Of a stretch of 64,000 nucleotides of DNA, positions 2,145 to 34,944 are shown one piece after another; position 1 is the first letter of the stretch, and the number at the start of each line of letters is the position of its first letter. Source of the stretch: Parapedobacter tibetensis (GTDB lineage: Bacteria; Bacteroidota; Bacteroidia; Sphingobacteriales; Sphingobacteriaceae); the NCBI RefSeq assembly GCF_024704835.1, contig NZ_JAMXBE010000012.1:1-64000 (forward strand). The letters are read 5' to 3'. The position numbers and the translations under genes were made by a program. The notes under the pieces were generated by a model. The model searched no databases. It saw only the letters and a list, made by a program, of their open reading frames with translations, and was not told the DNA's origin.

Positions 2145-2999
2145 ATGATTATTATCGCAGACGGAGGATCAACCAAGACAAATTGGTGCTTATTGGATGA
2201 TGCCGGGAAAAAAGTGTATTTCAATACTGAAGGTTACAATCCGTATTTCGTGAATAGCGAATACATTGTAAATTCACTTAAAAAGGGATTACCAAAGGAT
2301 TTGTCCTATGATCAGATAGTAGAAGTCAATTATTACGGTGCGGGTGTGCACAATGATGAAAAGGCCAATATCGTCATTGAGGCACTCCAACAGGTCTTCG
2401 TCAATTCCCAAGTGTTTGTAGGCCATGATTTACTGGCTGCCGCCAGGGCCTTGCTTGGCGACCAAGCAGGCTTTGCCGCAATTTTGGGCACAGGAACCAA
2501 CACGTGTATATATAATGGGGAAGATGTTGCATACAATATCGATTCAGCTGCCTATATCTTAGGCGACGAAGGCAGCGGCTGTTATATTGGTAAAAAACTG
2601 CTTACTGATTACATCCGGGGGTATATGCCAGAAAATGTCCGTGAAATATTCTGGGAAACCTACAAACTCACTCCCGATGATGTGATGGACGCTGTTTACA
2701 CCAAGCCCTTGGCTAATCGGTTTTGTGCGAGTTTCAGTAAGTTTGTGTATGATGTATCGGTCGATATCAGCTATTCGCGCGGAATCGTCCAAAATGCTTT
2801 CGATGATTTCTTTCGCAACTTAGTTTCGCATTATCCGGATTACCAAAATTATTCGTTCAATTGCATTGGTTCAGTGGGCTATAATTTCAGAAACGTATTG
2901 GAAGATACAGCCAATCAATATGGCATGAAGGTAGGCCGGATTGTCCGCTCGCCGATAGACGATCTGGTGCAATACCATATCAATAGATCGGCGAAATAA
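2145..2999 (+). CDS. BadF/BadG/BcrA/BcrD-family sugar kinase (N-acetylglucosamine kinase-like)
   Basis: This is a 284-residue cytoplasmic kinase of the ASKHA fold. The N-terminal phosphate loop ADGGSTKTNW begins at residue 5. The candidate catalytic Asp lies in HDLLAAARA near residue 95, and the second phosphate motif GTGTN is at about 115-119. A GDEGSG motif follows. The family includes eukaryotic and bacterial N-acetylglucosamine kinases, which make GlcNAc-6-phosphate. The ATG at 2145 is preferred over one 48 bases upstream because the conserved beta strand begins directly at MIIIADGG. The gene follows a FucP-type transporter, and a strong terminator lies just downstream. Substrate assignment is an inference from family and neighbour. 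Confidence 0.8.
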   Translation: MIIIADGGSTKTNWCLLDDAGKKVYFNTEGYNPYFVNSEYIVNSLKKGLPKDLSYDQIVEVNYYGAGVHNDEKANIVIEALQQVFVNSQVFVGHDLLAAARALLGDQAGFAAILGTGTNTCIYNGEDVAYNIDSAAYILGDEGSGCYIGKKLLTDYIRGYMPENVREIFWETYKLTPDDVMDAVYTKPLANRFCASFSKFVYDVSVDISYSRGIVQNAFDDFFRNLVSHYPDYQNYSFNCIGSVGYNFRNVLEDTANQYGMKVGRIVRSPIDDLVQYHINRSAK

Positions 3000-3025
3000 C
3001 CTACCGGATAAACAGGCTATTTTTT

Positions 3026-3061
3026 AAAAAAGGGTTGAAGAATCAAACTTCAACCCTTTTT
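3026..3061. terminator. Bidirectional intrinsic terminator
   Basis: A perfect stem (AAAAAGGGTTGAAG paired with CTTCAACCCTTTTT) with a 7-nt loop is flanked by T-rich sequence on one side and A-rich sequence on the other. It sits between the kinase on the plus strand and ybaB on the minus strand, so it can end both transcripts. Confidence 0.85.
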
Positions 3062-3142
3062 ATTTTTCAGCATTGGTAAATTATCACAACCCTTATATAC
3101 TTCGTCCTTGGAAAGGATAATCATCTGCGTCCTATTTTCTGT

Positions 3143-3448
3143 TTATTGACCAAATAGGCCACCTAATCCACCTAGCATATCTTGGGTAGCGGCTTGCATC
3201 TCCGTTTGACTGATATTGTCAGCCTGTTTCAAGGCGTTGTTAATCGCTACGACAAGGAGTTCCTCCAGTTCCTCTTTATCAGAATTAGAGAACAACACGG
3301 GGTCGATTATAATATCAGTTACCTCCTTGTTGGCAGTGGCTGTCACTTTAATGAGTCCTCCTTCTGCTTCACCCACTACACTGATATTATCCAATCGTTT
3401 CTTAATTTCTTCGGCCTTTTGGCGCGCCGCTAATAATTTGTCAAACAT
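3143..3448 (-). CDS. ybaB: YbaB/EbfC-family nucleoid-associated protein
   Basis: This 101-residue cytoplasmic protein has the length and layout of YbaB/EbfC, small dimeric DNA-binding proteins. A basic helical N-terminus (LAARQKAEEIKKRLDN) is followed by a beta section with VTATANKEVTDIIIDPVLF, then an acidic helix KEELEELLVVAINNALKQA, and a Gly-rich tail ending MLGGLGGLFGQ. In many bacteria ybaB neighbours dnaX and recR, but not here. Confidence is high from fold pattern and size. Confidence 0.9.
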   Translation of the reverse strand: MFDKLLAARQKAEEIKKRLDNISVVGEAEGGLIKVTATANKEVTDIIIDPVLFSNSDKEELEELLVVAINNALKQADNISQTEMQAATQDMLGGLGGLFGQ

Positions 3449-3505
3449 TTTTTTGTTCTTTTAAACACCTACCTCTTTGGTGAACCGAAATTAATATGTT
3501 TTGTT

Positions 3506-3976
3506 TTAATTTTTTCGCCGTGCAACAATGATAGCAATAACGAAAGCAATAACCACACCGATTACCGATGTGGAAATCGTAGATACCAAAATATGATTGG
3601 ACAAGGAAAATCGCAGTGCAGCTATTTGTGCATCCATTCCTTTAGTCTCAACAGCATAATGCATCATATTATTCAGGAAGGTCGGATTCACAAACACACA
3701 AAAGACATACCACACCAAAGGGCACAGCATGGTGACTACCAATGTGATGCCTAACCCAGCCATGAAAGCTTTCCTAAATCCCGTGCGGCTATCGGATTGA
3801 TTCCTACTGCTTCGGATACCCCAAAACATAATAGCCACAGAAGGTACGGCGAAAAAATACGAAAGGTATTCATGATATTGAATGTATCGGTCATGGAGCC
3901 CTACCAATGACTCAATAACTGCCCATATAAAAATGGCAAAAGCGAAAAGGATTCCGTAATAAATGGCTATCTTCAT
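3506..3976 (-). CDS. DUF4199-type membrane protein
   Basis: This predicted 156-residue inner-membrane protein has four hydrophobic segments, at about residues 5-25, 38-55, 70-95 and 125-152. It ends in the basic tail ARRKN. The arrangement, a helical pair followed by a soluble loop and a final helix, matches the DUF4199 family, which is common in Bacteroidota and has no assigned function. A start 18 bases further upstream is possible, but the second ATG (MKIAIYYG) begins the first helix. It shares orientation with ybaB downstream and the lipoprotein upstream. Confidence 0.65.
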   Translation of the reverse strand: MKIAIYYGILFAFAIFIWAVIESLVGLHDRYIQYHEYLSYFFAVPSVAIMFWGIRSSRNQSDSRTGFRKAFMAGLGITLVVTMLCPLVWYVFCVFVNPTFLNNMMHYAVETKGMDAQIAALRFSLSNHILVSTISTSVIGVVIAFVIAIIVARRKN

Positions 3977-4060
3977 AAAAGGGTAGATCACCACTCAAAT
4001 ATATAGATAAAGGTATAAAAAAGCAAGTATAGCGCTAAAGGCTTCATGACACATAGCCTA

Positions 4061-5008
4061 CTATCCCCCCATTTTCCCTCGCACCCTCAGATATAGTACG
4101 CTACTATGTGGCAAACCCAAGGTAGTGGCAGGTGTAATCTCCAGTAAATTTTGCAGGTACACCTCTACAATACCCGTGAGCACTCTCCTTCTCGATTCCT
4201 CAAACTCGGGCATCACAAAGAACTTACCCAGATGCATTTTCCCTTCCTGATCCACTAATACCGAGAACGTATGGTAAAAATCTTTGTATGCCTTGTCAAT
4301 AACAATATCATATTCAGGATACAAGTAAGCGTAAGCAGCCGATTGGTTTATCAGCTCCAGGCTATCGTATTGACGACGCTTCACTTCGATATTCGGACTC
4401 TTACTCGCCAATTTCACAGTTTGCTTAGAAGAAAACGAACTATCCACATTTGTTGGATTACAGTTAGCCCGTTCGATCATTTGCTGAACAAACAAGGAGT
4501 CCTGTTTGCGTGGCTTCCGCAGATCGGCCAAGGAAGTACTTAGTTGTTGCAAATATTGTTTGGAATAAAATCGCATGTATACATTGGAGCGTATCTTATT
4601 TACTTTCAGGCCGTCTAAACTCAGGCGTTGGAGCATCATGCTGTCGCGGTGCAGGTCAATCACTTTCCAGCTTTCTCTCGCAAAATGGAAAAATGAGTCG
4701 TGATCGTGGGTGATCTCAAAATTGAACGAGGAATCACTGCCCGGCACATAGATCTGGATGGCATCCTCACGAGTGAATTTCACATGCCATTCGGGTTCCT
4801 GTACAAATCCAATGGAATCATATGCCAAGCCGCTGTCAAATGACCGCCTCACCTCATAATAGTCAATCCCCGCAATTGGGGTAAAGGATGGTTTTCGTCG
4901 ATTTTCCCTTTCGCTTTGGGCGCCCCCCGCACAACCCACAAGATAACAACATATCATGAAAAAGTGGATTTTTCTAAATTGGGCAATGAAACTACTCTTT
5001 ATTTGCAT
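4061..5008 (-). CDS. Uncharacterised lipoprotein
   Basis: This is a 315-residue protein that I do not recognise. The N-terminus is basic, then hydrophobic (IHFFMICCYLVGC), with a lipobox-like LVGC-A near residue 26, so a lipid-anchored envelope location is likely. A later start at the internal Met near residue 18 would leave a shorter signal. The mature part is mixed, with many Tyr, Asp and Ser residues and no visible repeats or catalytic motif. A section near residue 255 (FSVLVDQEGKMHLGKFFVMPEF) resembles the beta-rich C-terminal lobe of TonB-like domains, but this is weak. Confidence 0.55.
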   Translation of the reverse strand: MQIKSSFIAQFRKIHFFMICCYLVGCAGGAQSERENRRKPSFTPIAGIDYYEVRRSFDSGLAYDSIGFVQEPEWHVKFTREDAIQIYVPGSDSSFNFEITHDHDSFFHFARESWKVIDLHRDSMMLQRLSLDGLKVNKIRSNVYMRFYSKQYLQQLSTSLADLRKPRKQDSLFVQQMIERANCNPTNVDSSFSSKQTVKLASKSPNIEVKRRQYDSLELINQSAAYAYLYPEYDIVIDKAYKDFYHTFSVLVDQEGKMHLGKFFVMPEFEESRRRVLTGIVEVYLQNLLEITPATTLGLPHSSVLYLRVRGKMGG

Positions 5009-5377
5009 AGCCCGCTAACCTAATATAAATACCAATAATATCCAATAAATTTCCTGTTACAATGATGCGGTTTCTATTTTCGATACCCACATGGAAGCCT
5101 ATTAATGGACATCATATTAAGTTTTCACCAAATGAGAAACAAAAAAAGTCTCATTTGTATTCAACAAACTCACAAGCCAACGATTCAAAAATTCATTTTG
5201 GAAGGGTTTTCCGTGAAGACAATACCCTGAGCGCTTAAATACCATTTCCTGATGGATAAAACAGGGAACCTGTTTTCTAAAAATAGGTCCCTGTTTTAAC
5301 AAATAGCCTATCGACGAATGGGTATTTGAAGTGACCACGAATCACGACTTTATCTTTTTAAAGATGACCTACTTACA
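5009..5377. other. Intergenic stretch with two hairpins
   Basis: These 369 bases carry no convincing gene. A 73-codon reading frame at 5117-5338 (minus) has no recognisable domain and covers both hairpins, so it is not called. The stretch contains a hairpin at 5129-5157 (CAAATGAGA arms) and a longer one at 5258-5297. Both lie downstream of the SDR gene on the minus strand. Confidence 0.5.
5258..5297 (-). terminator. Terminator-like hairpin downstream of the SDR gene
   Basis: Arms of 13-14 bases (AAAACAGGG-ACCT and its near complement) pair with one bulge. On the minus strand the 3' arm ends in CCCTGTTTT. It lies 80 bases past the SDR stop codon, a plausible place for transcription to end. 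Confidence 0.5.
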
Positions 5378-6145
5378 TTAAATCATCTGTCCGCCTGAAA
5401 CCTCAATTCGTTGGGCGTTAATCCAATAGGCTTCTTCCGTACATAAGAAAGCGACCACAGGGCCGATATCCGTTGGCAAACCCACACGCCCCAAAGCCGT
5501 AGCCGAAGCAATGTGCGCATTCATTTCTTCATTATCCCTAACGGCACCTCCGTTAAAATCTGTTTCGATAGCCCCCGGCGCAACGATGTTGACTCTTATT
5601 TTTCGTTCGGCCAATTCTTTTGCCTGATATTTGGTAAGGATTTCCAAAGCACCTTTTATCGAGGCATAGGCTGAGTATCCGGGATAAATAATACGGGTCA
5701 ATCCTGAGGAAATATTAACAATACCACCACCGTCATTCAAATAACCCAACGCCTGCTGAGTGAAAAAATAGCCAGCCTTGAAGTGTATATCAATCAATTC
5801 GTCAACTTGAGAAACCGTAGCGGAAGAAAAAGGAGCAAATTGTCCCGTACCAGCATTGTTGATTAGAAAATCAAATTTACTTGTATTGAACTTTTCCTGT
5901 AACTGTGGATTTAACCTGTTGCCGAAAAAGTCGGCGTAACCGTTGTGGTCTGAAACATCCAGTTGCAAGGCCAGGGCTATCCCGTCGCTATTTTCAATTT
6001 CAGCTACCACGTTATCAGCTGCTTGTTTGCCGCTTTTGTAGGTGAGTACTACATCAATTCCTTTTTTGGCAAGGTTTAAAGCCATATCCCTGCCCAGCCC
6101 TCGGCTCCCGCCGGTTACTAATGCGATTTTGTTTTGTGTGTTCAT
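5378..6145 (-). CDS. Short-chain dehydrogenase/reductase (SDR)
   Basis: This 255-residue classical SDR is probably a cytosolic NAD(P)H-dependent oxidoreductase. The cofactor-binding motif TGGSRGLG lies at residues 11-18 and NNAG at 96-99. The catalytic Ser is near 146 and the YxxxK pair is Tyr160/Lys164, so all active-site residues are present. An Arg in the glycine motif and the absence of an acidic residue at the end of the second strand (TYKSGK) suggest NADPH preference. The substrate cannot be inferred. The AraC regulator gene lies 113 bases upstream on the same strand. The gap holds a strong AraC-type direct repeat, so this gene is the probable target of that regulator. Confidence 0.85.
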   Translation of the reverse strand: MNTQNKIALVTGGSRGLGRDMALNLAKKGIDVVLTYKSGKQAADNVVAEIENSDGIALALQLDVSDHNGYADFFGNRLNPQLQEKFNTSKFDFLINNAGTGQFAPFSSATVSQVDELIDIHFKAGYFFTQQALGYLNDGGGIVNISSGLTRIIYPGYSAYASIKGALEILTKYQAKELAERKIRVNIVAPGAIETDFNGGAVRDNEEMNAHIASATALGRVGLPTDIGPVVAFLCTEEAYWINAQRIEVSGGQMI

Positions 6146-6194
6146 ATTTTACTTTTTTATTTACTGCAAAGTTCATGAACAACACATCATGGGA

Positions 6195-6222
6195 TGTAGT
6201 CGAATCTCCTATTGTTGTAGTC
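6195..6222 (-). promoter_or_regulatory. AraC-type operator upstream of the SDR gene
   Basis: Read on the minus strand, GACTACA occurs twice in direct orientation exactly 21 bases apart (forward-strand copies at 6195-6201 and 6216-6222). Two half-sites on the same DNA face two turns apart is the usual arrangement bound by one AraC-family protein with two helix-turn-helix motifs or by a dimer. The pair ends about 50 bases before the SDR start. A second diverged copy with identical spacing lies at 7446-7473. Confidence 0.6.
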
Positions 6223-6258
6223 AAAAATGGGGGTTGACGTATTTTAGAAAAAATCTCA

Positions 6259-7182
6259 TCAATTAAATGACTGCCTAAACGCTAAAGGCGAAAGTTTGGT
6301 CTTGTTCTTGAACAGCTTACTAAATGACTGCGGATGTTCAAATCCCAATGCGTAGGCGATTTCGCTTACCGAAAGTTCAGTAGTGGATAATTTTTCTTTG
6401 GCTTTTCCAACCAGTTTATTGTGGATGTGTTGTTGGGTGCTTTGTCCGGTGAGCGTTTTAAGCAAACTACTTAAATAGTTGGAAGACACGTTGAGTTTAT
6501 CTGAAATATCCTGAACTGTTGGCAAGCCTTTTTCAATTAAATCATCATTATCAAAATAATCCGTAAGCAGCTTCTCTAACCGATCAAGGATTTTATGGTT
6601 GGCTATTTTACGGGTAATAAATTGGCGGTTATAAAACCGGTCTGCATAGTTAAGCAACAATTCAATTTGCGAAATAATAATCCCTTGGCTAAATTTATCA
6701 ATATTAGCATGATATTCTTGCTGGATATTTTGCATAATCCCTACAATAACAGTCTCTTCTTTTTCTGAAAGGAACAGGGATTCATTGACCGCATAACCAA
6801 AAAACTCGTATTGTTTAATACCCTTCGCCAAAGAAGTATTCCATAAAAAATCGGGGTGAATAAGCAACAGCCATCCTGAAGGTTGCACAGATTCTTCACT
6901 GTCAAGCAATTCTACGCTAAAAACCTGTCCCGGAGCAATGAAGGACATCAATCCTTCGTCAAAATCGTATTCCTGCTGGCCATACCTGAATTTTCCGCAT
7001 ACATTTCTTTTTAGGCCTATGGTATAAAAATCTTGTATCCAGCTTACCTGGTTATTTTCGGGGGAATGACTGATTTGCCGATAATCTACCAAACTTATTA
7101 GGGGGTGCTCAGGGTTAGATAATCCTCGAAGTTTATGAAACTCGCTAATGGTCTTGATTCTGTGAATTTGTTTGATTGGCAT
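6259..7182 (-). CDS. AraC-family transcriptional regulator
   Basis: This 307-residue DNA-binding activator has an N-terminal cupin-like sensing part at about residues 35-150 (for example DFYTIGLKRNVCGKFRYGQQEYDFDEGLMSFIAPGQ, broken here as the sheet region). Two helix-turn-helix motifs follow at the C-terminus. The first (VQDISDKLNVSSNYLSSLLK) is near residue 220. The second (SVSEIAYALGFEHPQSFSKL) is near residue 272 and carries the family signature. It resembles Bacteroidota regulators found beside SDR genes. The operator-like repeat between this gene and the SDR supports local regulation. The effector is unknown. Confidence 0.85.
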   Translation of the reverse strand: MPIKQIHRIKTISEFHKLRGLSNPEHPLISLVDYRQISHSPENNQVSWIQDFYTIGLKRNVCGKFRYGQQEYDFDEGLMSFIAPGQVFSVELLDSEESVQPSGWLLLIHPDFLWNTSLAKGIKQYEFFGYAVNESLFLSEKEETVIVGIMQNIQQEYHANIDKFSQGIIISQIELLLNYADRFYNRQFITRKIANHKILDRLEKLLTDYFDNDDLIEKGLPTVQDISDKLNVSSNYLSSLLKTLTGQSTQQHIHNKLVGKAKEKLSTTELSVSEIAYALGFEHPQSFSKLFKNKTKLSPLAFRQSFN

Positions 7183-7366
7183 ATGGAAAGATACTTATTT
7201 TTAATGATATTTTTTCAATAATTCAAGGTTAGACTATTTCAACCTATTCTTAACAATCTATCGTCTCCGGGCCTTGGTGTTGTTCCACCCCAAGCCACAC
7301 CATCAGTATTTGAAGCGATTAAACGAGCGCATCCATTAATGGTATTAGAGACATAGTAAGCATTAT

Positions 7367-7398
7367 ATTACTAATCCGATTTTGTTTTGTGTGCCCAT
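7367..7398 (-). pseudogene. Truncated SDR start (about 11 codons)
   Basis: On the minus strand an ATG at 7398 begins MGTQNKIGLV and stops after two more codons. This closely matches the first ten residues of the intact SDR (MNTQNKIALV) 1.25 kb away, and its upstream region also matches. It is therefore the remnant of a duplicated SDR gene whose body has been lost, or a copy of the control region carried with the first codons. Confidence 0.6.
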
Positions 7399-7445
7399 TT
7401 TCTGTTTTATATTTTTTCAAAGTTCCGAAACAACACCTAATGCAA

Positions 7446-7473
7446 TGTAGCCGAATCTCTTGTAGTTGTAGCC
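7446..7473 (-). promoter_or_regulatory. Second AraC-type operator copy
   Basis: On the minus strand GGCTACA occurs twice in direct orientation 21 bases apart. The intervening GAGATTC is shared with the operator at 6195-6222. It precedes only the truncated SDR start and lies between the DoxX stop and the AraC gene. It could still bind the regulator. Confidence 0.5.
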
Positions 7474-7494
7474 AAAAATAGGGTTGTTTTAAAC

Positions 7495-7908
7495 TTATTT
7501 CGCTTTGGTCACTAGCGGAACCTTCTTGAGTCTTCCCCATATAATGAATACCGCAATAATTCCAAAGAAAATGTTTATACCAATTTGTGATGCCTCCCCT
7601 CTTGAAATGTGAAAAATACTTGCAGCGATCATCAATGCGATCGTTCCAAATGCGGCATAAATTGTAAGCTTTGGCTGTATATGAAGTAATGCCGGAAAAA
7701 CCAATCCAATACCTGCCAACAAATCCAATACTCCTGTAAGTTTTACCAATGTGACATTGCCTGCTGTCCATGCCCACATTTCAGCTAATTTGTCAGCTGG
7801 TTGAAACAGTTTCATCGAGGCTGCCCAAATAAAACCGATTGAAAGCATCACTTGTGCTATCCAAAGGATAATGTTCATTGTTTTTGATGTTTTTTGCTCA
7901 CTTGCCAT
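7495..7908 (-). CDS. DoxX-family membrane protein
   Basis: This is a 137-residue inner-membrane protein with four predicted helices, at about residues 10-30, 48-66, 73-92 and 108-125. The segments IGFIWAASMKLFQP and KLTGVLDLLAGIGLVFPALL are characteristic of DoxX/DoxD-like proteins. These are often linked to redox stress, but their biochemical role is poorly defined. The ATG at 7908 is preferred because a purine-rich AAAGGATA precedes it. Upstream extension would run through the HxlR operator. It is divergent from an HxlR-type regulator, a common pairing in which the regulator represses the neighbour. Confidence 0.8.
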   Translation of the reverse strand: MASEQKTSKTMNIILWIAQVMLSIGFIWAASMKLFQPADKLAEMWAWTAGNVTLVKLTGVLDLLAGIGLVFPALLHIQPKLTIYAAFGTIALMIAASIFHISRGEASQIGINIFFGIIAVFIIWGRLKKVPLVTKAK

Positions 7909-7962
7909 ATTATATCCTTTTATCATCACAAAATTAACCATATTTGATATCCGAACGATAGT

Positions 7963-7998
7963 ACTTCCTCTTTGGATAGCACTATCCAAATGGGAAGT
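7963..7998. promoter_or_regulatory. Extended palindromic operator between DoxX and HxlR genes
   Basis: A two-tier dyad is visible. TTTGGATAG and CTATCCAAA flank a 2-bp centre, with outer arms ACTTCC and GGAAGT after 2-bp spacers on both sides. Total span is 36 bp with no mismatch in any arm. It sits in the divergent intergenic region and reaches the first possible ATG of the HxlR gene, so binding should block both promoters. Dimeric winged-helix HxlR proteins recognise such dyads. Confidence 0.7.
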
Positions 7999-8358
7999 AA
8001 TGTAAAAAACGAAAAAGAAATGTTGTCAAAAGGTGGCTGCCCTAAAACGATGCTTTCAATCAGAGATGCTCTTGAGGCTGTTGACGGAAGATGGAAATTG
8101 CTTATCTTGTTTTCTTTGTCGGAAGGTCCTAAACGATTTAAGCAAATTGCAAGGGAAGTCAACGGAATAACGGATAAAACGCTGTCCAAAGCCTTAAAAA
8201 GTCTGGAAGTGAATCAATTAATAATTAGAGAAGTGTTTGATACCTTTCCCCCGGCTGTTCAATATACTATTACAGAACATGGGATGTCGCTTGAAAAAGT
8301 ATTGGATGAACTTCATTATTGGGGTTTAGCTCACCGTAAGAAAATCATTGGTAAATAA
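7990..8358 (+). CDS. HxlR-family winged-helix transcriptional regulator
   Basis: This 122-residue (or 112, from the ATG at 8020) DNA-binding protein has the HxlR hallmarks. A Cys sits near the N-terminus (GGCPKTML), followed by GRWKLLILFSLSEGPKRFKQIAREVNGITDKTLSKALKSLE as the winged-helix core and the wing ending in PPAVQYTITEHG. HxlR proteins often sense aldehydes, thiols or disulfide stress through the conserved Cys. The outer arm of the palindrome overlaps the first ATG, so the internal ATG preceded by GAAAAAGAA may be the true start. The divergent DoxX gene is the likely target. Confidence 0.85.
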   Translation: MGSNVKNEKEMLSKGGCPKTMLSIRDALEAVDGRWKLLILFSLSEGPKRFKQIAREVNGITDKTLSKALKSLEVNQLIIREVFDTFPPAVQYTITEHGMSLEKVLDELHYWGLAHRKKIIGK

Positions 8359-8411
8359 TTGTCTAAAGAGCCCGCTCAAGCAAACTTGGTGAACTCTTTT
8401 GCATAAAAATA

Positions 8412-8436
8412 CCCCTGCGTTCGCAGGGGCTTTTTT
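8412..8436. terminator. Bidirectional intrinsic terminator
   Basis: CCCCTGCG and CGCAGGGG pair tightly, followed by CTTTTTT on the plus strand. Reading the other way, the stem is followed by TATTTTTA. It ends the HxlR transcript on the plus strand and the tRNA-Pro transcript on the minus strand. Confidence 0.9.
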
Positions 8437-8439
8437 GGT

Positions 8440-8516
8440 TGGTCGGGATGGCGGGATTCGAACCCACGACCTCCAGCACCCCATGCTGGCGCGATACCTG
8501 GCTACGCTACATCCCG
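8440..8516 (-). tRNA. tRNA-Pro (anticodon GGG)
   Basis: A full cloverleaf reads on the minus strand. The acceptor CGGGATG pairs with CATCCCG. The anticodon stem CCAGC/GCTGG encloses loop ATGGGGT with anticodon GGG, and the T-loop is TTCGAAT. The terminal ACCA is encoded, so the CCA lies at 8440-8442. It decodes CCC/CCU proline codons. Confidence 0.95.
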
Positions 8517-27706: not shown

Positions 27707-28168
27707 ATGGAAAATAGGATTTCGGTTTTATATGTGGATGATGAGGAGAATAATTTAATTTCCTTCAGGGCTACATTCCGTCTGACCTATAGCGTATATA
27801 CTGCCATAAGTGGCATCGAGGCTATTCGAATCGTCAAGGAAAAGCCAATTGATATAATCATCACCGACCAGCGAATGCCACATATGACTGGGGTTGAATT
27901 TTTGGAAGAAATTATAAAAATCAGCCCTGATTCCATGAGGATATTACTCACCGGCTATGCCGATATGGGTGCCGTAGTGGATGCCGTGAATAAAGGCAAA
28001 ATATTTCACTACCTAAGTAAGCCATGGAGTGAAGAAGAATTGGATAACACCATCAAAAGAGCCTATGAAGTCCACTCGGAAAGGAAAAAAATAAAAGAAT
28101 CGTTTTCCAAGCTTGAGGTGACCAACGAACAGCTCGAATTTTTACTCAGGCAAAAGCTTCTTTCCTAA
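27707..28168 (+). CDS. Single-domain response regulator
   Basis: This 153-residue protein has one receiver domain (residues 5-120) and a short coiled-coil C-terminus (about 122-153), with no DNA-binding output. The acidic pocket is DDEENN at 11-16 and the phospho-acceptor is Asp54 in IITDQRMPHMTG. The conserved Lys is in LSKPW. It closely resembles the receiver domain of the hybrid kinase encoded convergently 12 bases away (shared DDE-NNLISF and DAVNKG-IF motifs), so they probably share a phosphorelay. It is convergent with the ThiF-GNAT operon. Confidence 0.88.
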   Translation: MENRISVLYVDDEENNLISFRATFRLTYSVYTAISGIEAIRIVKEKPIDIIITDQRMPHMTGVEFLEEIIKISPDSMRILLTGYADMGAVVDAVNKGKIFHYLSKPWSEEELDNTIKRAYEVHSERKKIKESFSKLEVTNEQLEFLLRQKLLS

Positions 28169-28180
28169 GCCATCTCATAA

Positions 28181-29266
28181 CTATTTACTCGCTATAACCA
28201 CAGTAAAAGTTGTTCCCATACTTTCTACGGAATTGACTTCTATTTCGCCCTGAAGCTTTGCCAAAGCACTTTTCACATTATATAGCCCGAAACCCGTTCC
28301 CTCCGCCTGATCACTTCCTCTGAAAAAAAGTTTAAAAATCTCTCCAATATCTTTCTCCGCGATACCGATCCCCGTATCTTTTACCTGTATTGTTGCAATG
28401 TTGTTCCCTACGATGACGGATAATTTGACAATTTTGTTATCACTGTCCCTTTTTTGATACTTAAAAGCATTGGACAACAAATTATGTATGATTAGTTTCA
28501 ACGATATCTCATCGCTTTTAAATTCCTCATTTTGTGTACTGCTAATGGTAAACTGAATGTTGTTGCTTTGGGTATAAATCCGATAGAAATCCTTGAAATA
28601 TTCGAATAATGCGCTAAAGTCAATATCCGAAATACTGAGTTCACCGCGTTTTAACAGGTAGTAATCATGCAAGCTGTTTATATACGAATTCAATTTTAAT
28701 ATAGAGCTTTCCATCAACCCCAAAAGCTCATGAATTCGCTCAACTGAATCAAACTCGAAGGCCAATTTAATCGCTGACAATACTCCAGTCAATGGATCTC
28801 TCAGGTCATGGCTAACACTATATGCAAATTTATCGAGTTCGTCATAGGCCCTTTGGAGTTCCTCATTCCTGATATCCAACATGGAGTTTGCAACGTAAAA
28901 TTTATTGGCCTCCTCAATAGATGAAATGATTTCCTCTTCTACCCAAGGCTTCTGCACAAACCTAAAGATATGTCCCTTATTTACTGCATCCACTACGGTC
29001 TCCATATCGGCATATGCAGTAAGAAGAATCCTTATGGGCCTAGGAAAATCCTTCTTCATTTGATGTAAAAAGTCAATGCCCATCTCACCCGGCATCCGTT
29101 GGTCACAAAAAATAATCCGGATATCGGGATTTGCACGCAGTATTTCCCTAGCTTCAACTGTATTGGTGGCGGTATATATGGGATAACGGTATCGAAATGC
29201 GGCTTTAAAACTAATTAGATTATTCGTTTCGTCATCAATGTAGAGTATTTCCGGAGATTTATGCAT
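28181..29266 (-). CDS. Hybrid protein: receiver domain plus histidine kinase
   Basis: This 361-residue soluble signalling protein has no membrane helix. The receiver domain lies at residues 5-122, with Asp55 in IFCDQRMPGEMG. A short helix leads into a HisKA domain with His153 in SVSHDLRDPLTG. An ATPase domain follows, with HNLLSNAFKYQ (N box), VKDTGIGIA (G1) and GTGFGLYNVKSAL (G2). A receiver placed before the kinase suggests that it takes phosphate from another kinase or tunes its own activity. It is the last gene of the minus-strand operon and lies 79 bases after the 7TM kinase. Confidence 0.9.
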   Translation of the reverse strand: MHKSPEILYIDDETNNLISFKAAFRYRYPIYTATNTVEAREILRANPDIRIIFCDQRMPGEMGIDFLHQMKKDFPRPIRILLTAYADMETVVDAVNKGHIFRFVQKPWVEEEIISSIEEANKFYVANSMLDIRNEELQRAYDELDKFAYSVSHDLRDPLTGVLSAIKLAFEFDSVERIHELLGLMESSILKLNSYINSLHDYYLLKRGELSISDIDFSALFEYFKDFYRIYTQSNNIQFTISSTQNEEFKSDEISLKLIIHNLLSNAFKYQKRDSDNKIVKLSVIVGNNIATIQVKDTGIGIAEKDIGEIFKLFFRGSDQAEGTGFGLYNVKSALAKLQGEIEVNSVESMGTTFTVVIASK

Positions 29267-29345
29267 AAAGCTAATGGGAGTTACAAGGCAAAAATCAAAC
29301 CTTAAACAACAAAAATAGCATAATTGATTTTAATAAACGCAACAA

Positions 29346-31472
29346 CTATCGTATTTGTTGCTGAAGTGGAATAACCAATCTAAATTCCGTCCCCTCACCC
29401 ACCAATGAGTCAATTTCTATCTCGCCATGATGCTTCTTGATTGTATTGTAGACAATGGACATGCCTAATCCAGTCCCTTCTCCGACTTCCTTAGTCGTGA
29501 AAAAAGGTTCGAATATTTTTTCGATTATGTCAGCTGGCATTCCAACTCCGTTGTCCTTGATAAAAATATATACGTTTGTATCGTCAGCTTCAGTTTTAAT
29601 CATTAGGTTTCCTCCAGATTCCCCTTCAAATTTCTTGTTAATGGCATAGATTGCATTCGTTGTGATATTTAAGAACACCTGGTTCAGTTTTCCGGGATAG
29701 CATTCCACCAAGGGTAGGTCACCGTATTGTTTGGTTACTTGTAGGGCATCCTTGACCACGCTATTTAGGATCACCAATGTTGATTCCAGCCCCTCGTTGA
29801 TATCAGCATATTTCAATGAATCTTCATCAACTCGTGAGAAAATGCGCAAACTCTTCACAATTTCTGCGGTTCTATTAGCCCCTTCATGCATACCTTTCAA
29901 TAAAAATTCGATTTCAGTCTTCAGGTATTCCAATTCCAGTTTTTCTTTATAGGTTTCAAGCTGCTGCTTTTTGTCCGCTATTGCATCACTTGAAAGCCCT
30001 ACCTTTTCGATTTCAATGAGGGCCTCCCACAATAAATTTATATCCCGTCGTAAAGGAGCAACATTGGACGTCACAAAATTGATAGGATTGTTGATCTCGT
30101 GAGCAACCCCCGCCGTCAATTGTCCAAGTGAGGCCATTTTCTCTGCTTCGACCAGTTGAGATTGGGTCTCTTTCAAGTGCTTCAATGTCTGTTGGAGTAT
30201 CTCGTTAGACTCTTTCAATTCATGCGTACGTTCTTCTACTTTCTGTTCAAGGTAGAGATTCTGCTCGCGTATCAACCTTTCGTTTTCCTTGGATATTTGC
30301 AACGTCCTAAGTTGGGATTCCTCTTTCTCCCTTTTGTAAATGTTTATTTTATCTGCCAAAGCAAAAGACAATAATGCTACCTCCAATCCTGAACCTATCA
30401 AGATCGAATTACTGGTGAAACTATTATATGGCAGAATACTTGCATCCTTCAATATATAAATAATTACCCCACTCAAGAAAAACGACCAAGCGACGTAAAA
30501 AAACAGCGCTGGTTTATATTTTTTCCTATAGTATATATAAAAACCGCTAAATAACACCAATGCTGAGCTGAGGGCTGTATTCAACTGCAATATTTGCTGA
30601 CCAATGATGTACTTCCCTCCCAAATAAAGGATGGCAGATATAAGATAAATGCCAATGGTGACGCACAAAGCAATGTAAACAATTCTCAAGAAACGCTTGA
30701 CATGCAAAAAATTAAACGTAAACAAAATGGAAAAGACCCCGGCTAAAACGGTGATGACATGATTAGCCCTAATGATTAACCATTCTGAGTCAGGCCATAA
30801 AAACTTGGCAGCATACCCTTGTAGACAAGCTTGTGTAAGTCCTACCACTAAAATATATAAAACGTAATACAGGTATTGTTTATCCTTAATTGATAGGTAC
30901 AGGAAAAAATTATAGAGGAACATGACTATAATAATCCCTGAATAAATGCCAAAATACAATTGGTCATTGGCCACCCATTCCAGAATGGTGGCATCCCTGC
31001 CTATAGTGATAGGAATTTCCATTATACCATTTCCGGAAGCTCGCAAGAAAAAAACAGCCTTTGAACCAGGCATAAGCTTAACCCTAAAAATGGGATATTG
31101 TGTCTTAAATTCACGTTTATAAACAGGGGTAATGCTTAACAACTGCTGAACCTCCGCTTTGCCATTCGTCATATTATAGAAAGTCAGACTATTGATATTG
31201 GCATTCTGAATTTTAAGTAAAAAAACACTGTCCACAACCTGATTGGTTACCTCAATTTTAAACCAAAATACTGATTTGCTTAATCCGAAGTTTGGGGAAT
31301 GGTTTGGTAGTGTATCAAACTCCTTATGGATGATGTCTGTTATTTCAAACTGGTGGTATTGATCTTCAATAACACCTACATTCAAGGAAATTTCTTCTGC
31401 GTACTTTAGCGTAGAATCTGTATAAGCCAATAAGATGCCTAAAACGTGATATAGGATATGTGAGAAAAACAT
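29346..31472 (-). CDS. 7TMR-DISM sensor histidine kinase
   Basis: This 708-residue membrane sensor begins with a signal peptide (about residues 1-18). An extracellular beta-rich 7TMR-DISMED2 domain (about 25-160) likely binds a carbohydrate-like or other small ligand. Seven helices follow (about 172-375), then a coiled coil (about 380-445). The HisKA domain has His458 in [16 protein letters not shown], and the ATPase domain carries DNGVGMP and [15 protein letters not shown] domains are known as ligand-binding, but the ligand here is unknown. It is co-oriented with the ThiF fusion and GNAT genes, 63 bases after the latter. Confidence 0.92.
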
Positions 31473-31535
31473 CTACCGTTATATTTCAATATTATTTTCG
31501 CTTATTGCATGTTGCACATAACCACAGTGCGCTGC

Positions 31536-32243
31536 TTATGAATGCTCCTTATCTAAGGATAAGTTATATTCCACCATAAGTTCGCCTTTTGGGCCTTTTT
31601 CCACTCTACTTTGAATGGGAGTCTTGTCAAACTCCTTTATAAAAAGTTGGTTGTCCTCCGTTGCATGGGATAGCTCATTGACATCCCTAATGACCATAGC
31701 GGTGGCCACCAAATCCAATTTAGGATAATTGAAAAAACCATCATTCCCGAGAGACCGTTCAATCACAAAGCCTGCCCGTCCTCCCATTCTTACAGTGGCC
31801 GGTGCACATAATGCAAATAATGATTTGACTTTCAGCTTCCTCGCTAGTACAATAATTGCTTTAGTTAAGTACGCACTACCTATCCCGTACCCGGCAACCT
31901 CCCTGGAATTCCATAAACCACATAGTTCCGCAGTCATCTGTCCTTCGCTATGCTGCCTGATTACTTCATGTATTTTAGCATCAACTTTGCCTACTGCTTC
32001 TTCAATTGGCAACATTAATTCATTGTCAGCTATTTGGAGTCGCGCTCCTCCGAATAGTCGACCATCAGCTTTAGATTCAACTAATACGACATACGTGTTT
32101 GGATGACTGGTCCACAGTGCCTTATTGGAGGTTATCATGGTAATTCCATAGATTTCAAGCACCTTCCTGTGCCCCTCTATAAAGCGTGCACATGATTCGG
32201 GTTCGTCTGTGGCGCGAAAAGCTCTGAACGTTACAGAAATCAT
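31536..32243 (-). CDS. GNAT-fold acyltransferase-like protein
   Basis: This is a 235-residue cytoplasmic protein. A GNAT core is visible: strand GGARLQ at 65-70, strand AELCGLWNS at 105-113 followed by the acyl-CoA loop GYGIGSAY (118-125), then the helix AIIVLARKLKV and strand SLFALC. The order ARLQ, then an acidic strand with a downstream helix and RxGF, resembles LuxI-type or exosortase-associated acyltransferases. No specific family could be assigned. Its ATG lies 2 bases after the stop of the ThiF-nitroreductase gene, so the two are translationally coupled and likely act in one pathway. Confidence 0.65.
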   Translation of the reverse strand: MISVTFRAFRATDEPESCARFIEGHRKVLEIYGITMITSNKALWTSHPNTYVVLVESKADGRLFGGARLQIADNELMLPIEEAVGKVDAKIHEVIRQHSEGQMTAELCGLWNSREVAGYGIGSAYLTKAIIVLARKLKVKSLFALCAPATVRMGGRAGFVIERSLGNDGFFNYPKLDLVATAMVIRDVNELSHATEDNQLFIKEFDKTPIQSRVEKGPKGELMVEYNLSLDKEHS

Positions 32244-32245
32244 AT

Positions 32246-34564
32246 TTAATTTTCTCTCTGAAAAAAAACCTCATTCAAGTTTAACCTCAAGGAACTCACT
32301 GTTGGATTCTTGCCTTTAAACAGCCTAAAGAGGAATAAGGGCACCTCCTTTAATGGAGTAATATCAAAAATAGCATCAAATTCTTCATTCAGTATGGCAA
32401 ACTCATTTTGAATCTTGATAGGCATATCTCCCCCTTTTCCATATCTTAACCTCGTGAAGTGTAATACTGGCGCTAATACAGGTTGTAATGAAATGAGATT
32501 TTTATTGGCGGTAATCCATAGCCGCTCCACAGCCTTACCTGCCGCTAAGCAATTGATTGCGTCAAATGTTGGCATAGCGATAAGCCCTACCGCTGACGAC
32601 GTTCCTATAAGGTCTGATGTCATATTTTCGAGCGCTTTCCCTAAATTCCAATCAGCAATCAGCTGCATAGCCTTTGGATCTCTTGCTACCCTGAAACCTA
32701 TTGTGTCTTTGGTGCTCAGTCCAAGGGTTCGGACATCTAATCCATCTTTTGTTTTTTCCGTCTCCTCTACTGTCCATCTCAACTCCTTTTCAAATAGGTC
32801 ATAATGGCCCTGCGGTATAAAAAGTCGCAATTTCTCGGATTTCCCAGCAACTAATGCCAAACGCTGTAAGTCATCCTTATCTTCGATAAATTTAAGCGTA
32901 GCCCCCTCAATCGGCGCTATTGATCGCCGTATCTCATTAAGACTTTTGGTATCCAATTTCATTCCGGTACCCAAATGTCTATTAGTACATCGTAAGTGAA
33001 TATGAGCTATCAAATCGCTCTTGACAGGCTGGGAAGGGCTAAATGAAAAAGCCGCTATTAATAGGGGCTCATCAGGTAATGGAAAAAGCATTTCCGTCAC
33101 TTCCACCCCCATTTCCTTAGCTTTCAAATTCAAATTTTCAATTGCGGTGCCGAAAGTCATATAGGATGCCATGTTTTCGAAATCGCCATATGATTCCGAA
33201 CGCTCAATATCATGAAATAAATAAAGCCGTTTTCCATCAAAGTACCATTTCCATGGCTGGTTATTTCCCGGAGACGGCGCAATAGATGCTGTTCTAACCA
33301 GCTCTTTTACCATTTTATTGTCTATATTATACGCTGTATTGCCAATAGCAGGCAGTCGCTTAGCGACCCTCATCATCTCTTCATCATTCAATGACTTTTT
33401 AGTGTACTTAAAGTTTGGGGCTGCCGGCTTTGTATCATCTATCAATTCTTCTAAATCGATAAAATACCTCCCTGATTGATGGAATAAATCCAAGAGCACC
33501 CTTCTACATACATCTGCAGTAATCCCTCCGCCCATTGTTACCGCACTTGCCAATTGAGGCCATGTCGAAATGCTTTGTCCCACTTCAATCGCTGAGGCCT
33601 TCATCCTTATCGACAATGTTTCTACCCCTGCAAAAGCAAGTATATAAGGAAGTTTTTGCTCATTGGTTTTGAGGTTTTTGAAATTTGAAATATCCAAATG
33701 TTCTACAAATCCATGCAATATTGGTCTATCTGGCTCCAAATCGAACCGTTCGATGTCAACGGTTCCCCGGTCACTAGCTTCCATTAAAACGGGGATGTGA
33801 TGCTTCTTTGCCGCCAATCTACAATTAATCTTCACGTCTACCCCATCGCATTCATCAATCAATACATCAAGCTTTCCCCCATCTAAAAGAAAGGACTCCA
33901 AATTCTCTGTTGTAATCCCATCATGAAAGCATGTGATTTTTAAATAAGGGTCAATCTCGGCTATTTCCCTCGCAACGATTACCGTCTTTTTCAACCCCAT
34001 GTTATGCACCCCGCTTCGAAGTCGATTTAAATTCGTTATTTCCAGCTCATCGAAGTCTGCAATCCGCAATTCACCAAACCCTCGCTCCATAGCCAATGTC
34101 AAGGAAACCGATTGGCCTACGGAAAGGCCAATTACCCCTATTTTCTTCTTCGTTAATACAAATTGCTCTTCAGCAGTGATTTTATATTTATTTCGGTTTG
34201 TCCTCAGTTCAGCAAATTCGTTTTCATCCAATAGGTGCACCAGCTTTTCATTCCATGGATAGTAAACCCATACGCCATATTCGTCAAAGGGCGTATCTCC
34301 AACATGATTCTCGATTAATGAACACAACCGACTTTCCTCCAACGTCTCGGTCGGCAAAGAAGATTTTATCAGCTCTTTGAGTTGCGGTTCAATGGTATCA
34401 AAAACCTGAATATAAGGTTTCCGTTCCAATAGCTTCGCCAGTCCTTCTCGATCTTCTGGGTTTCCAATACGAAAAAATAATGGCTGAAAGGTTTCCTTGT
34501 CTAGTTGCTGGTTGCTTGTTATCCGGTGTTTCAATGGCCCGGTCTTAAAATCATCAATCATCAT
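32246..34564 (-). CDS. ThiF/E1-like adenylyltransferase fused to a nitroreductase domain (Rv1355c family)
   Basis: This is a 772-residue two-enzyme fusion. Residues 1-130 are an uncharacterised N-terminal section. An E1/ThiF nucleotide-binding domain follows at about 138-370. Its glycine loop GVIGLSVGQS lies near 143-152, with D170, D172 and NLNR at 178-181 matching the adenylation site. No CxxC zinc pair is seen. A flavin nitroreductase fold spans about 395-720, with APSPGNNQPWKW at 429-440 in the FMN-binding position. The organisation matches the Rv1355c family, whose function is unknown. E1 plus nitroreductase resembles partners that activate and oxidise peptide-derived compounds, an inference only. 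It heads the operon. Confidence 0.85.
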   Translation of the reverse strand: MMIDDFKTGPLKHRITSNQQLDKETFQPLFFRIGNPEDREGLAKLLERKPYIQVFDTIEPQLKELIKSSLPTETLEESRLCSLIENHVGDTPFDEYGVWVYYPWNEKLVHLLDENEFAELRTNRNKYKITAEEQFVLTKKKIGVIGLSVGQSVSLTLAMERGFGELRIADFDELEITNLNRLRSGVHNMGLKKTVIVAREIAEIDPYLKITCFHDGITTENLESFLLDGGKLDVLIDECDGVDVKINCRLAAKKHHIPVLMEASDRGTVDIERFDLEPDRPILHGFVEHLDISNFKNLKTNEQKLPYILAFAGVETLSIRMKASAIEVGQSISTWPQLASAVTMGGGITADVCRRVLLDLFHQSGRYFIDLEELIDDTKPAAPNFKYTKKSLNDEEMMRVAKRLPAIGNTAYNIDNKMVKELVRTASIAPSPGNNQPWKWYFDGKRLYLFHDIERSESYGDFENMASYMTFGTAIENLNLKAKEMGVEVTEMLFPLPDEPLLIAAFSFSPSQPVKSDLIAHIHLRCTNRHLGTGMKLDTKSLNEIRRSIAPIEGATLKFIEDKDDLQRLALVAGKSEKLRLFIPQGHYDLFEKELRWTVEETEKTKDGLDVRTLGLSTKDTIGFRVARDPKAMQLIADWNLGKALENMTSDLIGTSSAVGLIAMPTFDAINCLAAGKAVERLWITANKNLISLQPVLAPVLHFTRLRYGKGGDMPIKIQNEFAILNEEFDAIFDITPLKEVPLFLFRLFKGKNPTVSSLRLNLNEVFFQREN

Positions 34565-34944
34565 GTCTTATGGCTAGAATTATCATACGCTCATCGCTAT
34601 TTACTACTGCACTTATCACCCTTACTTTAATTTGAAACAGTGAGCATGCTATAGAAAACCTCCTCAACAGCTAAACGACAATCATATATTTACATCTTTC
34701 TACAAACGCTCCGAAAATTGTGCTTAGGTATCCGCTTTTTATCTTAAAAAATTTTATAAAGATGGAAGCTAGAATACGCTTTAACAACATTATTAATGCT
34801 AGTGTATCCCAAAGAGCATAAAATTACAAAAATAATCCTCAATTCAAATTTTGCCTTTTAATTTATGATGACGAACCTTACAGCTGAAACATCCTATCAT
34901 TACACTAAAAGAGCCTGTTCAGTAAACTGAACAGGCTCCGGATG
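34565..34944. other. Intergenic stretch upstream of the ThiF fusion gene
   Basis: No gene is seen in these 380 AT-rich bases, which contain the start region of the ThiF operon on the minus strand and the tRNA-Met terminator at 34911-34938. One exact -7 match read on the minus strand (TATTTTTG, 34827-34834) lies 260 bases from the ATG but lacks a correctly spaced -33 box. Confidence 0.4.
34911..34938 (-). terminator. Terminator of tRNA-Met
   Basis: GAGCCTGTTCAG and its exact complement form a 12-bp stem with a 4-nt loop, followed on the minus strand by TTTTAGTG. It lies 6 bases past the tRNA gene. Confidence 0.85.

Follow-up and report, generated by a model that had tools for sequence, protein, structure and literature searches.

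Organization of the locus

Our study examines a five-gene locus of Parapedobacter tibetensis (Bacteroidota; Sphingobacteriaceae), located within the first 64,000 nucleotides of contig NZ_JAMXBE010000012.1 (assembly GCF_024704835.1); this whole stretch is referred to here as the window. The locus encodes a ThiF-nitroreductase fusion, a GNAT-fold protein, a 7TMR-DISM sensor histidine kinase, a soluble hybrid of a receiver (REC) and a histidine kinase, and a lone receiver (Table 1). A sequence-only reading of this DNA had previously placed these genes; all five are open at those coordinates and on those strands, and comparisons with Pfam and NCBIfam confirm their domains. The fusion and the GNAT gene are separated by 2 bases, as that reading had noted, and the next minus-strand gaps measure 63 bases (GNAT/kinase) and 79 bases (kinase/hybrid). 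These short distances favor the proposed single operon, which the four minus-strand genes likely form; it is nonetheless unproven, given that a promoter-like TATTTTTG, which we take to resemble the Bacteroidota -7 element, lies inside the 79-base gap. The similarity proposed between the lone receiver and the hybrid's own receiver was also borne out, with 54% identity over 108 columns. The fusion is a single-copy gene in this genome, and the guanine plus cytosine (GC) content of the module region (0.39-0.40) is at the low end of the range across the window (0.38-0.49).

Table 1. Features of the P. tibetensis locus, with positions in the window.
Feature	Position	Strand	Length or content	Basis
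ThiF-nitroreductase fusion	32246..34564	-	772 aa	Open frame; Pfam and NCBIfam domains
GNAT-fold protein	31536..32243	-	235 aa	Open frame; sub-threshold Pfam match, predicted structure
7TMR-DISM sensor histidine kinase, whole gene	29346..31472	-	708 aa	Pfam 7TMR-DISMED2, 7TMR-DISM_7TM, HATPase_c
Sensor half of the 7TMR-DISM kinase	30333..31472	-	Residues 1-380: N-terminal helix, RetS-like jelly roll, seven-transmembrane (7TM) domain	Identity profiles, trees, model
Kinase half of the 7TMR-DISM kinase	29346..30332	-	Residues 381-708: coiled coil, HisKA, HATPase	Identity comparisons
Soluble REC-histidine kinase hybrid	28181..29266	-	361 aa; receiver Asp55, His153	Pfam, aligned loci
Lone receiver	27707..28168	+	153 aa; Asp54; convergent with the operon	Pfam, aligned loci
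TATTTTTG, candidate operon promoter (unproven)	34827..34834	-	262 bases before the ATG of the fusion	
TATTTTTG, candidate internal promoter (unproven)	29310..29317	-	Within the 79-base gap before the hybrid kinase	

Conservation of the cluster in Bacteroidota

Related loci were retrieved by means of the fusion, its family model, or the GNAT protein, and never by a kinase. This resulted in 112 non-redundant Bacteroidota loci, after removal of one duplicate (L135) and of four plasmid loci that gave no GNAT match. The GNAT protein is present in 151 of 301 Sphingobacteriaceae genomes and in 13 of 395 genomes drawn across the phylum; 57 of the former and three of the latter contribute the 60 later loci, which were hand-picked for genus spread before their neighborhoods had been seen. 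The first neighborhood set contained none of the loci up to L037, nor L047 and L051, which are repeats.

Searching within 7.5 kb of the GNAT gene, we identified a 7TMR-DISM kinase in 109 of the 112 loci, in every case on the same strand as the enzymes (109/109) and at a median gap of 5 bases; two of the three loci lacking it are at contig ends, and the third (L105) is a real absence. The REC-kinase hybrid was found in 104 loci (two of the eight misses are near a contig end) and the lone receiver in 101 (several of the 11 misses are near one). It is important to note that lone receivers were sought only in frames shorter than 200 aa, so that L060 was scored as a miss; open reading frame (ORF) calling failed at this locus, giving shadow ORFs, and its five genes were located by tblastn. 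The complete set of GNAT, kinase, hybrid, and lone receiver is present in 96 of the 112 loci, which were used in our later covariation, tree, and alignment analyses; the lone receiver is placed on the side of the enzymes in 52 of them and on that of the kinase in 44.

The presence of the synthase and that of the receiver also go together: in 60 relatives, matches to the GNAT protein (E up to 1e-10) and to the receiver (E up to 1e-36) were both found in 33, neither in 25, and one alone in 2, the receiver matches in G037 and G044 lying in longer frames that are more likely hybrids. ThiF without GNAT occurred in 0 of 27 relatives. Outside the module, the neighbors vary in the 44 loci compared. 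The one widely recurring gene is that of a second receiver (about 131 residues; 21 loci), which is absent from the window and mostly comes directly after the hybrid kinase (for example, L086:12486-12878); the next commonest family, found in 6 of the 44, is a gene of the chromosomal site shared by Parapedobacter species, and one ABC ATPase family appears in three, at differing places. The module proposed in the sequence-only reading is therefore upheld by the clustering of the kinase in 109 of 112 loci amid varying outer neighbors. The conservation counts rule out a chance arrangement or freely varying neighbors, and the conserved cluster rules out that the ThiF fusion usually stands alone.

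Predicted enzymes of the locus

The fusion matches the NCBIfam model NF005901 (Rv1355c family) with 786.8 bits against a cut-off of 476, and it contains the ThiF and Nitroreductase domains of Pfam. When it is compared with eight other Bacteroidota fusions and five actinobacterial plasmid homologues, 96 positions are invariant, including Asp240, Asp243 (ECD motif), Arg525, Arg529, and Arg580. The closest solved structures are tRNA threonylcarbamoyladenosine dehydratase for the ThiF part and Acg for the nitroreductase part. The report on TrzAS (PMC12856293) describes the Rv1355c/TrzS family as converting N-acyl amino acids into acyl-oxazolones: Rv1355c is TrzS, which together with the N-acyltransferase TrzA yields N-acyl tryptazolones, its ThiF domain cyclizing with the use of ATP and its flavin domain desaturating with the use of O2. 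Like chemistry on tyrosine or phenylalanine is reported for OxzAB and TyzACB. Oxazolones are described as labile to acid and alcohol (PMC12856293). The fusion in the window is thus predicted by its sequence to be of the TrzS/OxzB type, and it would cyclize and desaturate an N-acyl amino acid; the enzyme half of the locus is known chemistry. In one genome (G014, locus L061, positions ~6858-8495 and the next ORF), the frame of the fusion is interrupted inside its nitroreductase domain (545 + 227 aa) by a sequencing error or decay; a relative of the same genus (L147) has it whole.

In the case of the GNAT protein, the Pfam call is below threshold (Acetyltransf_1, 16.5 bits; cut-off 20.7). The structure prediction that had been proposed for it, an AlphaFold2 model built from 15 sequences, has a predicted local distance difference test score (pLDDT) of 89, and its top match in the PDB is the N-acyl amino acid synthase FeeM (2g0b, E 1.6e-9; TM-score over chains A-D of 0.62-0.65 by model and 0.75-0.81 by target). 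The next matches are the N-acyl homoserine lactone (AHL) synthases MesI, BjaI, LasI, and EsaI, interspersed with general acetyltransferases, and FeeM and BjaI are reported as the closest to TyzA of the known oxazolone pathway. From this model, which bears out the GNAT fold, the protein is predicted to be an N-acyl amino acid synthase. A LuxI-type AHL synthase is unsupported by sequence: the window protein and four relatives gave no match to the Pfam autoinducer synthase family up to E 0.1, Acetyltransf_1 being matched below threshold only. An hhalign comparison with three Rhodococcus TrzA candidates, themselves unproven, is colinear and weak (22% identity, E 0.0027, probability 11), and the sequence link to them is no more than suggestive. 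The GNAT profile gave nothing useful against the sequences of solved structures, and no match was found to the Streptomyces GNAT protein adjoining a ThiF gene.

The enzyme accompanying the GNAT protein is interchangeable. Among the 112 loci, this middle position is occupied by a ThiF-nitroreductase fusion in 60, ThiF alone in 35, a methyltransferase in 14, an ICMT-family protein in two, and a FAD-linked oxidase in one. All seven relatives with GNAT but without ThiF have a methyltransferase dependent on S-adenosylmethionine there (three of these first seven were scanned with Pfam, and the rest of the methyltransferases were recognized by similarity). No nitroreductase was found near ThiF in any of the 35 fetched stretches with ThiF alone, and an undesaturated ring is accordingly predicted for them. 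ICMT enzymes methylate the carboxylate of a lipid-bearing amino acid; based on this activity, we infer that the step shared by the middle enzymes is the masking of the carboxylate of an N-acyl amino acid, the same group being the presumed target of the methyltransferases. The FAD oxidase does not readily fit this idea.

Covariation of the middle enzyme and the sensor half

Special attention was given to Parapedobacter, where nine genomes, including that of the window, possess the locus. Seven of them have it between START-like and LptG-like genes and the gene of EF-Ts (the LptG-like and EF-Ts names were assigned from sequence), L083 shares the EF-Ts side only, and L065 is elsewhere. Three types of middle enzyme occur at this shared site, which we examined in an identity comparison of 44 loci. 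Compared with the window, the seven other loci of the site have a kinase half that is 74-77% identical whatever the enzyme; over the same loci, identity descends from 84 to 35% in the 7TM domain and from 65 to 18% in the extracellular domain. The sharpest pair is that of L083 (fusion) and L085 (methyltransferase), which have the EF-Ts flank in common: they share 98% of the hybrid's receiver, 93% of the lone receiver, and 83% of the kinase half, versus 43% of the 7TM domain, 17% of the extracellular domain, and 42% of the GNAT protein.

In a first analysis of 38 loci with all domains (these include L060, whose genes were loosely bounded, and L055, whose hybrid was recognized by length), pairwise identities form two blocks, one of ThiF, GNAT, extracellular, and 7TM domains and the other of kinase half, hybrid, and lone receiver. 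Correlations of 0.86-0.88 link the kinase half to the hybrid and lone receiver, compared with 0.37-0.39 for its own sensor. When the kinase block is controlled for in partial Mantel tests, the ThiF-GNAT, ThiF-sensor, and GNAT-sensor correlations are 0.49-0.73 (p 0.0005), and over the 96 loci those of GNAT with the sensor are 0.53 and 0.36 (p 0.001). Once the rest of the block is conditioned on, most correlations of a kinase-block member with enzymes or sensor are about zero.

Enzyme labels were counted over 93 loci, three with other types being left out. On the trees, the enzyme type changes 8-9 times along the sensor and 16-20 times along the kinase half, hybrid, lone receiver, and GNAT protein, compared with at least 28 for shuffled labels. 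The 11 testable methyltransferase loci form one clade of the sensor tree (support 100), which the kinase-block tree rejects with an approximately unbiased p value (p-AU) of 0.002; this test used quick trees under a simple model, and the group was set by enzyme, not by tree. The nearest neighbor outside the genus has the same enzyme type in 71 loci by the extracellular domain, 70 by the 7TM domain, and 66 by GNAT, and in 46-47 by the kinase half, hybrid, or lone receiver (shuffled means about 40, maxima 53-57).

Within six genera, the identity gap between 54 different-type and 59 same-type pairs is present up to about residue 380 and disappears beyond it, identities being about equal from there on; this residue lies within the long membrane-exit helix (residues 356-403 in the model), the Pfam 7TM domain ending at 375. 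The pooled within-genus median identity of the 7TM domain is lower in different-type pairs (32.3 vs 44.2). Those of GNAT (58.9 vs 55.5) and of the extracellular domain (24.7 vs 22.9) are not lowered because the large genus g13 is all of one type and very diverged; taken genus by genus, GNAT, extracellular, and 7TM identities all fall in six of the seven genera with two types. These results indicate that the sensor half changes with the middle enzyme, and the kinase half with the hybrid kinase and receivers.

Sensor structure and relay residues

The window kinase contains DISMED2, 7TM, and kinase core domains by Pfam. The model of its sensor half (pLDDT 85) best matches the periplasmic domain of RetS (E 1.3e-7). 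As a two-domain whole, it also resembles human WLS with an E value of 2.6e-5, but with a TM-score of only 0.36 and a root-mean-square deviation of 13.9. The 7TM cavity of WLS is described as holding the fatty acyl group of Wnt; this modeled likeness offers a lead toward a lipid ligand in the sensor 7TM domain, not a test of it.

In the 96 aligned loci, His458 of the kinase, Asp55 of the hybrid, and Asp54 of the lone receiver are each preserved in all 96, and His153 of the hybrid in 95. An apparent loss of His or Asp from the hybrid at many loci came from an over-narrow motif pattern and was refuted by the alignment columns. The natural reading of these residues is that phosphate would pass from the kinase to the hybrid's receiver and from the hybrid to the lone receiver. 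No DNA-binding domain was found by Pfam in the five window proteins.

A putative signal and its sensor

The covariation of enzymes and sensor within a conserved cluster leads us to conclude that the enzymes probably make a lipid-like signal sensed by the neighboring kinase, in a self-contained locus of synthesis and sensing comparable to quorum sensing. The proposal of the sequence-only reading that the enzymes make or alter a compound sensed by the 7TM kinase receives strong indirect support from this covariation. In such a mechanism, the GNAT protein would link an acyl group to an amino acid, and the middle enzyme would then mask the free carboxylate. In the window, the ThiF part of the fusion would close an oxazolone ring at the expense of ATP and the nitroreductase domain would desaturate it, giving an N-acyl dehydro-oxazolone; in other species, ThiF alone, a soluble methyltransferase, an ICMT-type carboxyl methyltransferase, or a FAD oxidase would act at the same position. 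The lipid-like product would enter or cross the envelope and bind the jelly-roll/7TM half of the adjoining kinase, which would set the phosphorylation of the hybrid's receiver and the lone receiver. The amino acid, acyl chain, ligand binding, phosphate route, output, and density dependence are parts that we infer.

Several observations weigh against this interpretation. Oxazolones of the known systems are reported as mostly cell-associated, the accessible portion of the TrzAS paper mentions no kinase (PMC12856293), and the lone receiver has no output domain by Pfam. L105 (genome G561, 2716-8512) has GNAT and ThiF-nitroreductase genes without kinases, as an enzyme-only relative, and L119 and L132 are real misses with neither hybrid nor lone receiver nearby. 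Regarding covariation, small significant correlations of the kinase block with enzymes or sensor survive (0.22-0.27 in 38 loci, up to 0.22 in 96), and the GNAT tree is no closer to the middle enzyme than the kinase block is, each having 16 changes. By 7TM identity, the nearest out-of-genus neighbor is of another type in 23 of the 93 loci, 11 of them in genus g13. No drop is seen in the small genus g3 (3 pairs), the exception among the seven, and different-type pairs of g20 and g21 have lower kinase-block identities as well.

Three other explanations were considered. The product could be an antimicrobial or membrane-active lipid that the kinase senses for self-protection or autoinduction instead of communication, in the manner of NisK (lantibiotic) and BceS-type sensing. 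We regard this as unlikely: sensing a self-made antibiotic would also give enzyme-sensor covariation, and N-acyl tyrosine derivatives (stieleriacines) are reported as antimicrobial (PMC12856293), but no transporter or immunity gene occupies a fixed place among the non-module neighbors of the 44 loci. Somewhat harder to accept is that the kinase senses an outside cue (stress, antibiotic, or envelope lipid) and that oxazolone production is under the control of the receivers, with the enzymes as the output. Sub-inhibitory antibiotics are indeed reported to induce oxazolone production in several proteobacteria (PMC12856293), but a cue from outside does not explain why only the sensor half varies with the tailoring enzyme, and the lone receiver lacks a DNA-binding domain. 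Improbable, and the weakest of the three, is plain linkage without ligand recognition, in which a single recombined segment carried the enzyme genes together with the first part of the kinase gene next to them, with breaks where homology was high: the enzyme genes directly adjoin the sensor half, the closest conserved stretch to them is the kinase half, and the lone receiver correlates with GNAT at 0.52 when on the enzyme side versus 0.39 on the kinase side, but an enzyme-side lone receiver (52 loci) still tracks the kinase half best (0.81, against 0.52 with GNAT, 0.49 with the 7TM domain, and 0.34 with the extracellular domain), the switch point, as an average of six genera, coincides with the membrane exit, and GNAT, which is part of that segment, is more loosely tied to the middle enzyme than the sensor is.

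A broader proposition can be formulated, for and against which we see the case as evenly balanced: an entire, as yet undescribed class of cell-cell communication systems in Bacteroidota, with N-acyl amino acid signals, interchangeable head-group enzymes that mask the carboxylate (oxazolone ring or methyl group), co-swapped 7TMR-DISM sensor halves, private dialects among close relatives at one chromosomal site, and a 7TM domain acting as a lipid receptor distantly like Wntless.

Comparison with known systems

The remark in the sequence-only reading that it knew of no described system with this content holds for the whole and fails for the enzyme pair. The joined system of enzymes, swaps, and tracking sensor had no report in the open-access literature among the matches listed, and the locus may point to a new form of bacterial communication; the pair itself is known from oxazolone synthesis of the OxzAB/TrzAS type (PMC12856293 and PMC10404671). 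In OxzAB (Pseudoalteromonas rubra), TyzACB, and TrzAS (mycobacteria, Rhodococcus), an N-acyltransferase gene likewise adjoins a Rv1355c/TrzS-family fusion, and our GNAT model shares with TyzA the reported matches to FeeM and BjaI. Three differences were found: the Bacteroidota pair is embedded with a sensor kinase, a hybrid kinase, and a receiver; its ThiF can stand alone or be replaced by methyltransferases; and its GNAT protein is not clearly alignable by sequence with the candidate Rhodococcus TrzA.

By analogy, the locus resembles a specificity locus of the ComQXP type for a small lipid-like signal; agr of Staphylococcus is a locus of the same kind. As in those systems, the synthase is clustered with a membrane kinase as a unit (109/112), and divergence of the synthase genes is accompanied by that of the sensor half but not of the kinase half, with exceptions. 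ComQXPA of Bacillus subtilis (PMC4008528) is described as having a signal-modifying enzyme adjoining a membrane kinase with a variable sensor half, a conserved cytoplasmic half, and specificity types; its signal, however, is a modified peptide and its regulator ComA binds DNA, whereas the signal proposed here would be small and lipid-like, built from an amino acid and an acyl donor.

Small-molecule synthases paired with membrane kinases include LuxM/LuxN, CqsA/CqsS, and LqsA/LqsS, which share with our proposal a small lipid-like autoinducer, a membrane histidine kinase, and a phosphorelay, and differ in synthase chemistry, sensor family, and phyla. The Pseudomonas 7TMR-DISM kinases RetS and LadS have the same periplasmic jelly roll and 7TM domain, the periplasmic domain of RetS being the best match of our sensor model, and to our knowledge neither is linked to a synthase. 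LadS is reported to bind calcium (PMC7695008).

What acyl-oxazolones do physiologically is, in the words of the TrzAS authors, a major unresolved question (PMC12856293). If our interpretation is true, their role would be that of a signal with its receptor next door; the 7TMR-DISM kinases would gain a ligand class and the Sphingobacteriaceae a synthase-receptor system. The locus occurs in some environmental Bacteroidota, and its maker and sensor change together between species; the swaps provide natural controls, namely close relatives with a nearly identical relay and a different synthase and sensor.

Related genes in other contexts

In the enzyme-only locus L105, the gene after the enzyme pair encodes a protein that matches the pentapeptide repeat below threshold. 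On the Streptomyces plasmids L094 and L095, a ThiF gene 44% identical to that of the window is directly followed in one by a GNAT gene and in the other by a beta-ketoacyl-ACP synthase III gene, which are possibly other acyl-making partners of ThiF. On the Rhodococcus plasmids L093, L157, and L158, a GGDEF gene adjoins the TrzA-like and Rv1355c-family genes, in agreement with the cyclic di-GMP genes reported beside the mycobacterial trzAS locus (PMC12856293).

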